A DNA stretch of 36,699 bases from a virus, in the IMG/VR virus record IMGVR_UViG_3300010885_046868, positions 1 through 36,699 of that record; one strand, 5' to 3'. The translations under genes and the position numbers were made by a program. Under the pieces are notes generated by a model. That model worked only from the letters and a program-made list of their open reading frames with translations. It had not been told where the DNA came from and searched no databases. This document shows positions 31,225 to 36,699 of the stretch, piece by piece. The stretch's first letter is position 1, and each line of letters begins with the position of its first letter.

Positions 31225-31309
31225 TTTGCTGTGGGATGTCCCCTGCCTTGCGTAGCGCCCTACACGGCATGCAGAAGCAGGGCTGTGAGTGGTATAGCTT
31301 CTCTGCCAT
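31166..31309 (-). CDS. Small Cys protein with basic tail, 47 aa
   Basis: The ATG at 31309 shares a base with the portal stop (TAATG), so it is coupled to the portal gene. It reads MAEKLYHSQPCFCMPCRALR, then a basic end KKSKRRKKP. The CxCxxC set may bind metal. It overlaps the methyltransferase start by about 59 bases. Confidence 0.5.
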   Translation of the reverse strand: MAEKLYHSQPCFCMPCRALRKAGDIPQQSAKLPDDEHPKKSKRRKKP

Positions 31310-33465
31310 TACCGCTTCTCGCGGGCTTCAACCTGTCGCATGATCTTGTTTGCCCAGCTTTGACCCGGGTTCCCGCCCCAGAGGGCCCAGGCAATGCGGC
31401 CAGCAGATGGGTAGCCGTCTTCGCCCTGATTGAATCCCTCGCCCTGCTTGTCAACCTCGTGTCTGGCAAGGAATGCACGCATCTTGCGAACACGCGGGAT
31501 TGTCATTTTTCCGCTAATCAGCATGTTGGCAGTAGCCTGACCTGGCCCGATGCCGCCACGGCCAAACTCTTTTCGCCAAGCGAGACCACGTGTCGCCTCG
31601 GCCTTCACAGCAGCTGGGACACCTAGGTTGATTCCAGAATAATCTGTTGCAGCGTAATTCTTTGAAATATCCTCTGGGCCGTGAACATTTTGCGCCCCGG
31701 CTGCCTGATAAGCCTCGCGGACCGCTGGGTCATTCTCAATTGCTTCAACAACAGGACCGTGATCCTTGAGAATATGAGAAATCCTATCTCTCTTGAATTG
31801 CAGGCCTGCCCCGGCCGGGAAATCAGATAGGTAAAGCTCGTCATGTGGTACGTCATTCTCTTCAAGCCAAGCGCGAGTTTCGTCAAGGCGCTTGATAGAT
31901 CGTGCGCTAACAATAAATATTCGGTGGTTATCTGACTTTTGCTGCAGGTAGCTGACTACTGCTTCATTTTCTTCGTCGCTTCCATCTTGGGTTGTAAGGG
32001 TTCCATCAATGTCGCACACAATGATTTGATCCCCGGCAGCTTTAGCAGTCTGCGACTGTGGAGCATTAGCCGGTGCATTGTCCGGAACTATGTCCTCGCC
32101 CTGCTCTGGTGACGGGGTTCCCTGCGGGTTATTTCCTGTCGGAGGAGTATCTTGCGGCTCAACCTCGCCCTTGGAAATAATGTTCTCAAGGTATTTCATG
32201 TACACCGACATTGGCATGTAGCCCTGCGGTGATGGGAGCCAAATCTCTTCCCCTATATCGCCAATACCGTCTTGGCCTCGCTCTCGCAGGGCATCATTAA
32301 GGCGAAGCCACGGAAGGCCGGCAAGTGAGGCCTTGTAGTAGTCGGCCATTTCTGCTTGGTCCTGCATCCCCATTCCGGTAAATGAGAATCGAAGGTTTTC
32401 ATCGTAGCGCCAGACGATTTCTCTGGTCATAAACTCAGCAATAAGCTCCATTAGCGGCTTGATACCGTTGTCCTGCGTAAACTTTGCCGCAACCTGTGAA
32501 GAGCTTCGGTTCATGTCAAACCCAATGCCGATATCCTGCGGCTGGACCGCAAACACGGCGCAAATCTTTCGGGCAAGGTATACCTGCCACTCCATGAATT
32601 GCATGTCGCGGTTGCTTGAGGCCAAAGGCATCCACTGCATACCCTTGCCACCGCCAGTAATTGCTATCTGGCTTCGACCGGCAATCTCTGCGTCCCAATA
32701 TGCCCGGAATGCGTCTACCTGATCTGCGCGGACGCCCTCACCAAGGTGCAAAACTCCGGGAGGTGCGGCGGCCATAACGGCCTTTGCATTGTATGCGGCT
32801 GCGGCAAGGTCGGCCTCGATCGTTTCAGCCAGAACCTCAAGCGGAGAAAGTCCGAGTGGCGTATAGGTCACCGGGTTTGAGATAATAACTAGCAGCTCGT
32901 GGTTTAGGTATCGCGCAATTTCCCTGCCGTCATCGGCAAACTCATAGTAGCGGGGCGCGTTCGGGTCAGTTCCGTCCCAGCCAGAATCAAAGACAATCTT
33001 CGATGCATCCTTTGCATGAAGCGATGCCACCGGGCGGTTGTAAGAACCTATCCGCCCGCCGTTCGTCGCCTCTACCTCGATGACGCCCTGATCCAAGACC
33101 AGAATGTCTTCGATGACCGGCTCCATCAGAGAGCGCCAGGAATCCATTCGCTCATTAGGCCTGCGCAACAGCTCCTTGATTTGGGCGATCTTCTTTGTGT
33201 TTGGATTAGTTTCAGAGTCTATTCCAATGATGTCCCACTTGGCCTGGCTGATTTGAGTCCTGCGAAGATTGATGGCAGCGCGAATCCATGGGTTTGTCCT
33301 CGACCAGCGACGAAGCTGCTGTGTGCTGCGCTTTGCATGATGGGTAACGCCAGCAACGCCTCGAGCATAAGGCGCGGAGTCATACTCCGGGGTGGTGGAA
33401 ATTGCGTTCGTTACTACTTCTCCGCGACCAAATAGTCGGCTAAAGAGTGAGCGGCCCTCTGCCAT
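31309..33465 (-). CDS. Portal protein fused to a HAD phosphatase domain and a C-terminal domain, 718 aa
   Basis: Residues about 1-440 are an HK97-like portal: RTNPWIRAAINLRRTQISQA, then LLRRPNERMDSWRSLMEPVI, and a wing region EWQVYLARKICAVFAVQPQD with FTQDNGIKPLMELI. After a Pro/Gln/Gly linker, residues about 477-600 form a HAD-type phosphatase: IIVCDIDGTLTTQ (DxDGT), IFIVSARS and FKRDRISHIL then ENDPAVREAY, as in polynucleotide 3'-phosphatases. Residues about 614-718 are a further domain with GLAWRKEFGRGGIG...FLARHEVDKQGEGFNQ...PSAGRIAWALWGG. GGAAGG precedes ATG 33465. The extra domains would decorate the portal ring. Confidence 0.85.
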   Translation of the reverse strand: MAEGRSLFSRLFGRGEVVTNAISTTPEYDSAPYARGVAGVTHHAKRSTQQLRRWSRTNPWIRAAINLRRTQISQAKWDIIGIDSETNPNTKKIAQIKELLRRPNERMDSWRSLMEPVIEDILVLDQGVIEVEATNGGRIGSYNRPVASLHAKDASKIVFDSGWDGTDPNAPRYYEFADDGREIARYLNHELLVIISNPVTYTPLGLSPLEVLAETIEADLAAAAYNAKAVMAAAPPGVLHLGEGVRADQVDAFRAYWDAEIAGRSQIAITGGGKGMQWMPLASSNRDMQFMEWQVYLARKICAVFAVQPQDIGIGFDMNRSSSQVAAKFTQDNGIKPLMELIAEFMTREIVWRYDENLRFSFTGMGMQDQAEMADYYKASLAGLPWLRLNDALRERGQDGIGDIGEEIWLPSPQGYMPMSVYMKYLENIISKGEVEPQDTPPTGNNPQGTPSPEQGEDIVPDNAPANAPQSQTAKAAGDQIIVCDIDGTLTTQDGSDEENEAVVSYLQQKSDNHRIFIVSARSIKRLDETRAWLEENDVPHDELYLSDFPAGAGLQFKRDRISHILKDHGPVVEAIENDPAVREAYQAAGAQNVHGPEDISKNYAATDYSGINLGVPAAVKAEATRGLAWRKEFGRGGIGPGQATANMLISGKMTIPRVRKMRAFLARHEVDKQGEGFNQGEDGYPSAGRIAWALWGGNPGQSWANKIMRQVEAREKR

Positions 33466-33468
33466 GTA

Positions 33469-33690
33469 TTACCTTCCTGACTTGCTGCGCTTCACGGCTG
33501 ACCAGAAAATGTCATCAGTCATGCGTCGGTTAATAATGTCCTGCATTTGTACTTTTGTGCAAGAGACGACCCGTCTACCACCTCGATATCCTACAGTATG
33601 GGCCAACAGGTACCTACCCCACCACGACGGAACAACGGTGGTGCCGTCCTCAAATTCTACCTCAATTGTGTTCTCAATGCCGGGGATCAC
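33469..33690 (-). CDS. Hypothetical protein, 73 aa
   Basis: The protein begins with a strand set (MIPGIENTIEVEFEDGTTVV) and the rest is basic (GRRVVSCTKVQMQDIINRRM). It is coupled to the gene before by ATGA and lies 3 bases before the portal. Possibly a head-assembly helper, inferred from place only. Confidence 0.68.
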   Translation of the reverse strand: MIPGIENTIEVEFEDGTTVVPSWWGRYLLAHTVGYRGGRRVVSCTKVQMQDIINRRMTDDIFWSAVKRSKSGR

Positions 33691-34112
33691 TCAGCTACGT
33701 CCTCTTCAATCCCGTCCATTGCATCTTGGTCCTTAAACATTTGCTCAATATCAAGCTGGTGCTTTCTTTGCTGCGGAACTGATCTGCGGGCCTTGTGCAA
33801 GTCTTGATAGCACCACTTGCAAACATTATACCTCTTCTGGCCCTTCGCCCTTGGGACCATTGGCTCTGGGGTTAGCTCAGTAATAAGATGCTGTCCATCT
33901 GGTCCGGCCATAATGCCGCAAGAGGCGCACTGCGGATGGGAGCGTTTCAGTTTCTGGTAGGTGTCCAAAACCGGGGTGATTGTCTTGTGAAGGCGGATCA
34001 GAGCAGACGCAAGTTCGCGCACCTCCTTACCGCGTTCCCGTATTTCAGAACAAAGGGTGCAGCTGGATGCGTCCTCCTCTAGTCCCAAATGGGCATAATG
34101 CTCGTCACTCAT
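33687..34112 (-). CDS. Zinc-finger protein, 141 aa
   Basis: The protein has CTLC near residue 19, CASCG at about 63-67 and VCKWC at about 97-101; the latter two make a zinc ribbon with a long insert. The remainder is basic and helical. It could be a divergent HNH or a terminase small-subunit-like DNA-binding protein, but neither is shown. First gene of the leftward run, divergent from the prohead protease. Confidence 0.65.
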   Translation of the reverse strand: MSDEHYAHLGLEEDASSCTLCSEIRERGKEVRELASALIRLHKTITPVLDTYQKLKRSHPQCASCGIMAGPDGQHLITELTPEPMVPRAKGQKRYNVCKWCYQDLHKARRSVPQQRKHQLDIEQMFKDQDAMDGIEEDVAE

Positions 34113-34275
34113 ATGTAAATGGTAGCAGTAAACACCAATGACAGGATAAAAAGGTTATTGTAGAATGTCCACGTATTGTCCGTGTGATGCTTTGTTTGGT
34201 AAAGAATCCTAAACATTCGTCATTACATTTCTTGTATCGCGGTGTTACCTTACGATATCAGAGATTATTATTGTA
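34113..34275. other. Divergent non-coding gap between structural genes
   Basis: About 160 bases before the protease promoter hold AT-rich sequence with ATTACATTTC and TTTGTTTGG. A leftward promoter for the 34112 gene should be here; a weak -10 TACCAT lies close to the ATG, but no good -35 is seen. Confidence 0.4.
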
Positions 34276-34323
34276 TTGACGCAGATGTCGTCGGACATCA
34301 ATATGTCCGGGTACCTAGGGAGG
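34276..34323 (+). promoter_or_regulatory. Promoter and SD of the prohead protease gene
   Basis: The -35 TTGACG (34276-34281), 17 bases and -10 CAATAT (34299-34304) are followed by AGGGAGG (34317-34323) and, 5 bases on, GTG 34329. This arrangement makes any longer start (34242) impossible for this transcript. Confidence 0.7.
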
Positions 34324-34328
34324 TCATT

Positions 34329-36059
34329 GTGGATTTTAAAGTCTTTACAAACGCCTTAAAGGCGTATGAGGGGCCAAACGGCGACCTCTTCGTAACGGGA
34401 ACTACTTCATCAACAATCCGAGACCTGCATGGCGATGAGATGACACTCAACGCTATTGAAACCATGGCTAACACAGCCAAGCAGAACATGACAATCTTTC
34501 TTAACCACAATTACAATGTTCCGCAAGACCTCTTCGGCTCGGTAAAAGATGCTCGAGTCGTAAAGCGATACGATGTCGAGTCAAATTCCGAAGTCTACGA
34601 TCTTGACATTGACGTCTTGGTGTGCAAAGAGGACGAAAACCCAGAAGCCATGCGCGCCTTCAAGGCCATCAAGCGCGGCGTGAAGCTTGGCTTGTCCATT
34701 GGAGCTCGGGTTGACCGCGTTTCAAAGAAGAAGGACGCCAGGACTGGCGACGATACATACGTTATTGACGCTGTTAAGCTGATGGAGGCATCCGTAGTTG
34801 GCATTCCGGCCAATCAGCGCTCATACCTTCAGAATGCCCTCAAGAGCCTAAAGGCTGCTGAGCAGTCCGGCGAACTTGTGGTTAACCATAAGGCCGCAAC
34901 GGATTTGTCCGAGGGCGACTTTGTATCCTGGGGCTCCAGCGGCGGAACGGCGCGCGGCAGAATTGAGCACGTCATGCGCGAGGGAACTCTTGGGGTTCCT
35001 GATTCTGATTTTAAAATTGAGGCTACCCCAGAAGATCCAGCTGCACTTATTAGAATCTGGAGCAGGTCTAACGACGAGTGGGCAGAGACCGACAAGTTGG
35101 TTGGCCACAAGTGCTCTACTCTTCGAAAGATTGACTCGCTTAAGGGCATCTTTGACCTTGAGGAGTCGACAGAGATTGACTCCGGCCCAGCAGTTTCGAT
35201 TGACGCTGCGGGGATCGTTGATGGATATGAGCAAAAGGGGGATGTGGATAGTTCCGCTAATTCCTTGCTCGCTGAAGGAGAAATTATCGTGGGAGACGCT
35301 GAAAAGGCTACTCGGGTGACCGTCACCGTCACGCAAAGTGACGATAAGGAGACAAAGAAGCCCGAGGCCAGTGAAAATATCCAAGATGAGGCCGTATCGG
35401 CTGCATCTGACGTTTCTAAGTCCGAGCAGGAGAGCCCCGTTGAGGCAGAGACGGCAGTTGATGTTGCCCCAGAGGCAGATCCAGCTGTCGAGGCTCCTGT
35501 CGAGGCTCCTGTCGAGGCCCCTGTTGACGAGCCCGTAGAGGCCCCTGTCGAGGAGCCAGTTGTGGAAGAGGTAAATGCCTCACATGAGGCCCTTCAGGCC
35601 CTTGGCGCAGTGCTCGTCCGCGCAAGCGCTGGTGAGCGCGCGCACATTTTGTCTAAGGTTGCTGAATTCGCTGACGGCGAAACTGCAACTGTGGCTGAGG
35701 CAGAGGTTGCCGAAGCCGTTGTCACCGAGGGTGAGCCTGTCGCCGATGAGGCACAGGAGGTCGCCCAGGAAATTGTTGAGGCCAATGGCCTTGATGAGGT
35801 AACTGCCATCGCTAAATCTGCGCTGGATGCAGCCTTTGCGGCACAGCAGGAGGTCAGCTTGATTAAGTCACAGCTTACCGAACTGATTGCCCAGAAGGCC
35901 AAGGTCGAGTCTGATCTTGCGAAGGCGCTTGATGTCGTTGGTCGACTGATGGATCTTCCGTCTGGTCGAAAGGCGTACTCAAGTGCATCGAATAGTTCAG
36001 GGACGAAGGCCCCATGGCTTTCTCCCGTAATTCAGCGAATGCTGGACAGCCAGGAGTAA
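34329..36059 (+). CDS. Prohead protease (S78, HK97 type) with TUDOR-like insert and scaffold-like tail, 576 aa
   Basis: GTG 34329 has AGGGAGG 5 bases upstream and a promoter before it. Residues about 1-185 are an HK97-type prohead protease: His in FLNHNYNVPQDLFGSV (His60), Ser in LGLSIGAR (Ser123) and LMEASVVGIPANQRSY. Residues about 190-275 (LSEGDFVSWGSSGGTARGRI, DPAALIRIW, LVGHKCSTLRKI) match a DUF2945/TUDOR-like domain. A low-complexity acidic region with repeated VEAP units (about 384-412) leads to a long helical C-terminus that could be a scaffold segment cut away by the protease. Confidence 0.85.
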   Translation: MDFKVFTNALKAYEGPNGDLFVTGTTSSTIRDLHGDEMTLNAIETMANTAKQNMTIFLNHNYNVPQDLFGSVKDARVVKRYDVESNSEVYDLDIDVLVCKEDENPEAMRAFKAIKRGVKLGLSIGARVDRVSKKKDARTGDDTYVIDAVKLMEASVVGIPANQRSYLQNALKSLKAAEQSGELVVNHKAATDLSEGDFVSWGSSGGTARGRIEHVMREGTLGVPDSDFKIEATPEDPAALIRIWSRSNDEWAETDKLVGHKCSTLRKIDSLKGIFDLEESTEIDSGPAVSIDAAGIVDGYEQKGDVDSSANSLLAEGEIIVGDAEKATRVTVTVTQSDDKETKKPEASENIQDEAVSAASDVSKSEQESPVEAETAVDVAPEADPAVEAPVEAPVEAPVDEPVEAPVEEPVVEEVNASHEALQALGAVLVRASAGERAHILSKVAEFADGETATVAEAEVAEAVVTEGEPVADEAQEVAQEIVEANGLDEVTAIAKSALDAAFAAQQEVSLIKSQLTELIAQKAKVESDLAKALDVVGRLMDLPSGRKAYSSASNSSGTKAPWLSPVIQRMLDSQE

Positions 36060-36063
36060 AAAA

Positions 36064-36699
36064 ATGAGTGAACTTAACGAAAAGTTGCAGGAAGTGCAGA
36101 AGGGTCTGGATGACCTTGGCGCTGCCCCGCACCTTGTTGGCCGTGTTGCCGACGAGAGTATTGATGTAGCCGAGGCCTATGCAACTCAGCGCGAACTTCG
36201 CAAGAAGTTCTCGAAGATGAGCCGCACAGAGCTTGGCGAAATGCTTGACATCCAGGCAGCCCGCGAAGGCGGGAAGCAGGCTTCTTCGGACGTTCTTAAC
36301 CGCCTTGCGGTTGCGAACCCAAACATTGCCAAGCTTCTTGACTCGACGGGCGGCACGGCTCTTATCCGACAGGACCTTGAGCCAATTCTTTACGCTTTGT
36401 TCGTAAAGAAGTTCCCATTCTTTGAGCGCCTGCGCAAGGAGCCGGCAAACGGCCTCGTGCACGCATTCAATCAGCAGTCAGCCTATGGCGATGCAGTCTT
36501 CCAGACGGAGACCGGCACCGTTACAGACGACACGAACACCTATGCGCGACAGACGACCAACGTGGCCGTCCTCGCAACCCGCCGTGGTATCACCCTGAAG
36601 TCGCAGTTTGCGATTACCCAGGGCGGCGCTCCGGGGCAGCAGGGCCTTTCGACTGAGCTTGAGGGTGGCGTAACCGCTATCGCCAAGAAGCTTCAGAAG
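36064..36699 (+). CDS. Major capsid protein (partial, runs off the window)
   Basis: ATG 36064 is 5 bases after the protease stop. The frame stays open to the window end (212 codons). The N-terminal 100 residues are helical and charged (KLQEVQKGLDDLG, MSRTELGEMLDIQAA), like the delta domain of HK97-type capsid proteins. Then STGGTALIRQDLEPILYALF and FFERLRKEPANG, AYGDAVFQTETGTV and RRGITLKSQFAITQGGAP follow the usual order of the fold. The place after a protease supports the call. The missing part should hold the rest of the A and P domains. Confidence 0.85.
   Translation, partial: MSELNEKLQEVQKGLDDLGAAPHLVGRVADESIDVAEAYATQRELRKKFSKMSRTELGEMLDIQAAREGGKQASSDVLNRLAVANPNIAKLLDSTGGTALIRQDLEPILYALFVKKFPFFERLRKEPANGLVHAFNQQSAYGDAVFQTETGTVTDDTNTYARQTTNVAVLATRRGITLKSQFAITQGGAPGQQGLSTELEGGVTAIAKKLQK

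Follow-up and report, generated by a model that had tools for sequence, protein, structure and literature searches.

The DNA analysed here (the window) comprises positions 1 to 36,699 of IMG/VR virus record IMGVR_UViG_3300010885_046868. ORF analysis of the window identifies a minus-strand reading frame at 31309-33465 that begins with ATG and encodes 718 amino acids. A preliminary description, made from the sequence itself, had proposed that this protein is a portal extended by a HAD phosphatase domain and a further C-terminal domain. Profile matches to PF04860, to phrog_415 and Hydrolase_3, and to phrog_2859, together with full-length homologues, confirm that an HK97-type portal, a HAD-fold domain and a helical C-terminal domain are joined in one protein, and the profile boundaries (HAD about residues 480-600, C-terminal domain residues 615-718) agree with the ranges first proposed.

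The portal fold occupies residues 60-394 (32284-33288, minus strand), where PF04860 (Phage_portal) scores 131.5 bits (cutoff 39.1; E = 5.1e-38) and phrog_2662 matches with E = 9e-50, which identifies it as an HK97-type portal. A Pro/Gln/Asn-rich linker follows (residues 428-479; 32029-32184, minus strand); in the family alignment its length varies, and a P-x-M-x-P-N-Q-like element recurs ahead of the HAD. No in-frame ATG, GTG or TTG occurs at residues 432-619 of the window protein, ruling out a free HAD made from an internal start, and profile searches found no P-loop kinase domain across the 718 residues.

Head genes surround the fusion. A small conserved ORF lies just upstream of the portal gene (33469-33690, minus strand), preceded by a conserved Cys-rich ORF (33687-34112, minus strand). 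Divergent from the portal is an S78-type head maturation protease (34242-36059, plus strand; PF04586, E = 1e-6) with an Hva1_TUDOR-like domain (PF11160, E = 7e-5, just below cutoff), and then the major capsid protein (MCP; 36064-36699, plus strand; phrog_752, E = 7e-7), which is cut by the window end. Based on tblastn synteny, the order and orientation of MCP and protease on one side and of Cys-rich ORF, small ORF and portal on the other are constant in all 22 fused loci checked.

By sequence and modelled fold, the middle domain (residues about 480-600; 31666-32028, minus strand) is a small, capless member of the HAD superfamily with intact motifs. Motif alignment places motif I (DIDGT) at residues 485-489 (31999-32013), motif II (VSARS) at 519-523 (31897-31911), the motif III lysine (FKRDR) at 557-561 (31783-31797) and motif IV (IENDP) at 576-580 (31726-31740), all on the minus strand. 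All four catalytic motifs are present, with D485/D487, S520, R522, K558 and E577/D579 retained; both motif I aspartates had already been noted in the preliminary description. The curated cutoff of Hydrolase_3 (PF08282) is exceeded, and phrog_415, named 'polynucleotide kinase', matches with E = 6e-11 when the full protein is searched and 4.5e-12 for the HAD by itself. The second-best Pfam match of the isolated HAD is LNS2 (PF24694, E = 4e-5, below cutoff), while HAD_PNKP (PF25109) reaches 19.3 bits against a cutoff of 27.6.

We modelled residues 470-718 with AlphaFold2 using 49 family sequences, which gave an alternating beta/alpha HAD domain followed by a five-helix C-terminal domain (mean pLDDT 79.9). 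The HAD portion is an alpha/beta Rossmannoid fold with pLDDT mostly about 80-94. Its top Foldseek matches in the PDB are the Nir2 LNS2 domain (9jtz and 9jz1, E = 1.6e-4) and T4 Pnkp, both with probability 1.00, followed by lipin-type phosphatases; the isolated T4 Pnkp phosphatase domain (5uj0) gives a TMt of 0.69. A profile of intact HADs searched against the PDB retrieved bacterial Pnkp1 (4xrp, E = 1.1e-6) and T4 Pnkp (E = 0.009). Matches to Pfam and PHROG profiles and the AlphaFold2 fold thus rule out an ordinary linker in the C-terminal half, an objection that the preliminary description had raised against its own reading.

Pnkp-type 3'-phosphatases (the T4 Pnkp C-terminal domain and bacterial Pnkp1) share with the window HAD the capless fold, DxDGT, [ST]xR, a lysine and a C-terminal acidic motif, and together with LNS2 they are its best neighbours in sequence and fold. 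LNS2 domains of Nir2 and PITM1-3 and the lipin-type HADs, although the top structural matches, differ by their eukaryotic lipid-binding context and fall below the Pfam cutoff. The Arg of the GRxPYD segment is essential in T4 Pnkp. In alignments with phage PNKs (DatBoi and Mollymur PNK) this segment is missing from the HAD, and END or DND stands where those enzymes have DDR; the domain therefore resembles the Pnkp 3'-phosphatases but cannot be counted among them. It further differs from Pnkp in having no kinase domain, in being fused to a portal and in being predicted to be catalytically dead in several relatives. The comparison with polynucleotide phosphatase/kinase made in the preliminary description thus stands for nearest relationship, whereas canonical membership is ruled out by the HAD_PNKP score, the missing GRxPYD segment and END in the place of DDR.

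The C-terminal helical domain (RHEVDK...GRIAWALWGG, residues 615-718; 31312-31623, minus strand) matches phrog_2859, which has no assigned function, over residues 615-716 (E = 1.7e-20 in the whole protein, 5e-22 alone); neither Pfam nor NCBIfam has a match there. In family alignments it is nearly invariant and is the most conserved part outside the portal fold. The same domain type recurs in other head proteins: it lies on the N-terminal parts of protease-MCP fusions in Synechococcus phage S-CBS3 and Roseobacter phage CRP-811, is carried by the phiPsal1 protease, and follows the portal part in HRTV-4 gp30. In these four it adjoins the portal or protease with no HAD between, unlike in the window. 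In phage PaBG it stands alone, as it does on a Novosphingobium plasmid, there beside a DUF2945 gene. We infer that this nearly invariant domain is the structural or anchoring part of the module, a likelier anchor than the HAD. As a separate observation, the window's head protease carries a TUDOR-like domain, and the C-terminal domain type neighbours TUDOR/DUF2945 domains in other phages and on the Novosphingobium plasmid; since they lie side by side in these settings, the two seem to travel together.

The fusion is widespread in a group of uncultured tailed phages. A scan of IMG/VR viral contigs with the window protein yielded 80 retained loci with identities down to 53%, and nearly all complete loci among them align with the full 718 residues in a single frame (53-79% identity). 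A second scan with a distant member as query added further loci, and 128 full-length ORFs collapsed to 65 distinct sequences. Because the full-length architecture is kept in dozens of distinct homologues, the fusion is neither a chance or frameshift product nor an assembly artefact, and the concern that it might be absent from relatives did not hold. One contig carries a lone in-frame stop between the HAD and the C-terminal domain (L042:2973-5144). UniProt entry A0A6J5R7M5, also in BFVD, has the same layout in 722 amino acids and derives from an uncultured Caudovirales phage; it is 73% identical to the C-terminal half of the window protein over 247 columns (TMq 0.91) and is evidently the same protein, under the purely automatic name 'HAD_like domain containing protein'. 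We found no portal-HAD fusion in isolate phages and no publication on one in the open-access literature searched.

The nearest unfused portal lies in an Anaerolinea metagenome-assembled genome (MAG) (L082:7902-9338). It has 478 amino acids and contains neither the HAD nor the C-terminal domain. Its portal core is 56% identical, its MCP and protease neighbours are about 55% identical, and the conserved Cys-rich ORF is also found beside it. No further unfused relatives were found in 177 genomes of the same class, and a query with the unfused protein returned 27 matches in IMG/VR viral contigs, mostly (in the subset inspected) loci already known to be fused. The wide full-length conservation and this unfused portal together indicate that the fusion is old in the lineage but not inherent to the portal. 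The Anaerolinea locus is a prophage-like region with a MuF-like ORF after the portal, which suggests that some phages of the group may infect Chloroflexota.

The catalytic residues are retained unevenly across the family. Motif I is intact in the window clade (13 of 13 rows), the L049 clade and L045/L046; it is altered in L030 (DIQG) and L039/L040 (EIDG), and the residue after DxD is changed in L025, L028, L032 and L036. The L062 clade (GIEAL) no longer has it, and neither do most members of the L064/L079/L100 group (EPEAI, DAEAL, NAESV); the forms across the family range from DIDGT through DIQGT and EIDGA to GIEAL, EPEAI and NAESV. Even in clade L016-L040, where the motif is mostly intact, residues next to the nucleophile have changed in some members (DIDGA, DIDGI, DIDET). 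On a tree built from the portal part, the DxD pair was lost in two large clades and two twigs, where the fold, purifying selection and an almost unchanging C-terminal domain persist; at least 5 changes of state are required, and well-supported branches force 4 of these, although intragenic recombination and some dS values near saturation weaken such counts.

Within the fusion protein the HAD evolves fastest, averaging 78% identity in the window clade. In pairs with intact DxDGT, its dN/dS is mostly 0.04-0.11; the portal gives 0.01-0.07 and the C-terminal domain about 0.02-0.11. The decayed HAD of the L062 clade keeps its reading frame and, at a dN/dS of about 0.05, remains under purifying selection; estimates reach 0.2 in the L064/L079 group. 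A model of a decayed HAD is still Rossmannoid (pLDDT 86.5), and the T4 Pnkp phosphatase and Nir2 are among its best matches, with Foldseek E values above 0.001. No other phrog_415 match was found in 23 family records of up to 91 kb, some of them perhaps fragments, and none at all in the possibly incomplete records of decayed lineages, so the search for a separate compensating phosphatase gene there was negative.

Portal genes of several pairs (L005/L008, L064/L076, L107/L108 and L010/L012) show strong intragenic mosaicism, in which nearly identical segments adjoin others of 65-80% nucleotide identity; this suggests that homologous recombination within portal genes is frequent. In L005/L008 the portal part is 96% identical at the nucleotide level and the HAD 73%, which suggested a specially swapped HAD cassette. 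We do not claim such a swap, because the mosaicism spans the whole gene in both directions and a single portal-HAD clade cannot be rejected in the HAD tree (p-AU 0.24). GC3 is slightly lower in the HAD across the family (0.54 versus 0.59) and is uninformative as a mark of recent acquisition.

HAD domains also occur on other, probably interior head proteins. The C-terminal half of L049, used as a query, retrieved L164, an unrelated phage whose terminase and portal are different and whose head protease is of the S49 type. Between protease and MCP this phage encodes a scaffold-like protein (L164:3998-4876), a putative scaffold by its position and coiled-coil character, which begins with a HAD of 41% identity. 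Relatives of this phage keep the scaffold HAD with all motifs intact (L166-L171), while near relatives encode the same scaffold-like protein without it (L178-L182); no isolate phage with a scaffold HAD was found. Between the window and the more distant members, HAD identity is 23-36%, yet D485, D487, G488, T489, R522, K558 and N578 are invariant across portal and scaffold HADs and D579 is nearly so, all of these positions belonging to the catalytic motifs. Several BFVD fold matches of the HAD are entries named prohead protease; A0A6J5R419, A0A6J5MQJ8 and A0A6J5NAI8 are candidate HAD-protease fusions. The simplest reading suggested by these cases is that HAD domains were repeatedly attached to interior head proteins, and the presence of one on an unrelated scaffold-like protein suggests that phages generally tend to place HADs inside the prohead.

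The closest precedent is a set of portal or MuF domains fused to PBECR, 2H phosphoesterase or InPase, which were proposed to be injected and were described alongside polyvalent proteins (Iyer et al. 2017, PMC5512222). The portal-HAD fusion is a variant of these: in both, a terminase-portal phage encodes a portal or head-morphogenesis domain joined to a compact enzyme domain, and the window protein likewise has an enzyme-type domain covalently fused to the portal. The substrates of InPase and 2H are, too, phosphate esters or anhydrides. No HAD fusion was found in the text of that paper, and the window protein differs in adding a highly conserved third, head-associated domain and in having an enzyme domain that decays repeatedly.

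In the established topology of portals, the C-terminus forms a crown facing the capsid interior. With this topology, up to 12 copies of the HAD and C-terminal domain would sit inside the head at the vertex where DNA enters and exits, the C-terminal domain serving as the structural or anchoring element of the module and the HAD as an optional phosphatase. Capless HADs typically act on large substrates, and the substrate here may be a phosphorylated macromolecule or a nucleotide, either inside the head or met by the exiting DNA. Judging by motif conservation, the HAD probably works as a phosphatase in the window lineage; elsewhere the catalytic residues are gone and the fold would persist as a structural element only. 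As the active site is kept in some lineages and lost in others, the HAD seems to add an optional function to the DNA gate without being one of its core components, and its activity appears unneeded for portal assembly or packaging as such. We put the probability that the HAD is an accessory phosphatase carried on the portal inside the head, active in the window lineage and degenerate in others, at roughly 55%. If active, about 12 phosphatase copies would stand at the sole vertex passed by all phage DNA, adding enzymatic activity to a part usually viewed as a passive ring. The series from intact to dead HADs, along with the unfused relative, offers natural material for testing what portal-borne enzymes do.

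The repeated loss of the catalytic aspartate while fold and selection persist could also mean that the HAD was recruited purely as a portal crown or spacer, an enzyme nowhere in the family, its motifs being leftovers; the far stronger conservation of the flanking domains fits this as well. We consider it rather unlikely, given that motif residues are invariant among intact HADs from two separate fusion contexts despite their low identity, and that DxDGT is kept throughout the window clade despite the modest average HAD identity there. The preliminary description had favoured a polynucleotide 3'-phosphatase healing DNA ends at the packaging vertex, and the nearest families are indeed Pnkp-type (phrog_415, Pnkp1 and T4 Pnkp). 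As stated, that proposal is unsupported and quite improbable: the HAD_PNKP score, the absent GRxPYD segment, END in place of DDR and the lack of a kinase domain count against it, and the lipid-binding Nir2 LNS2 domain fits the fold equally well. DNA-end processing cannot be general, because several lineages no longer have the two catalytic aspartates and a search of their possibly incomplete records found no phrog_415 gene in their stead, which indicates that the activity is dispensable there; repair of DNA ends at the vertex is a speculative idea.

An effector role is likewise unlikely, though not far-fetched. The HAD, with or without the C-terminal domain, would be released, for example by the prohead protease, enter the host with the DNA and dephosphorylate a substrate made by the host or its defences, as polyvalent-protein effectors do. 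The enzyme fusions of Iyer et al. (PMC5512222) are a precedent, the scaffold candidate and the prohead-protease-named fold matches place HADs on interior head proteins, and lineage-specific decay fits a host-dependent accessory function. Conservation is greatest in the most C-terminal domain and not in the HAD, the cleavage site is only hypothetical, and scaffold proteins normally depart or are degraded before ejection, all of which speak against release. A broader proposal, which we offer tentatively and hold to be doubtful, is that a mobile HAD phosphatase rides on the portal, the putative scaffold and probably the prohead protease; it would be carried in the virion, act at the DNA portal or upon entry against phosphorylated substrates made by the host or its defences, and degrade into a pseudoenzyme once it is no longer required in the host.

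Elsewhere in the window, the minus-strand ORF at 6301-6942 matches phrog_3704, named 'ferredoxin', with E = 1e-88; its translation contains no iron-sulphur cysteine cluster, and the name looks doubtful for this protein.
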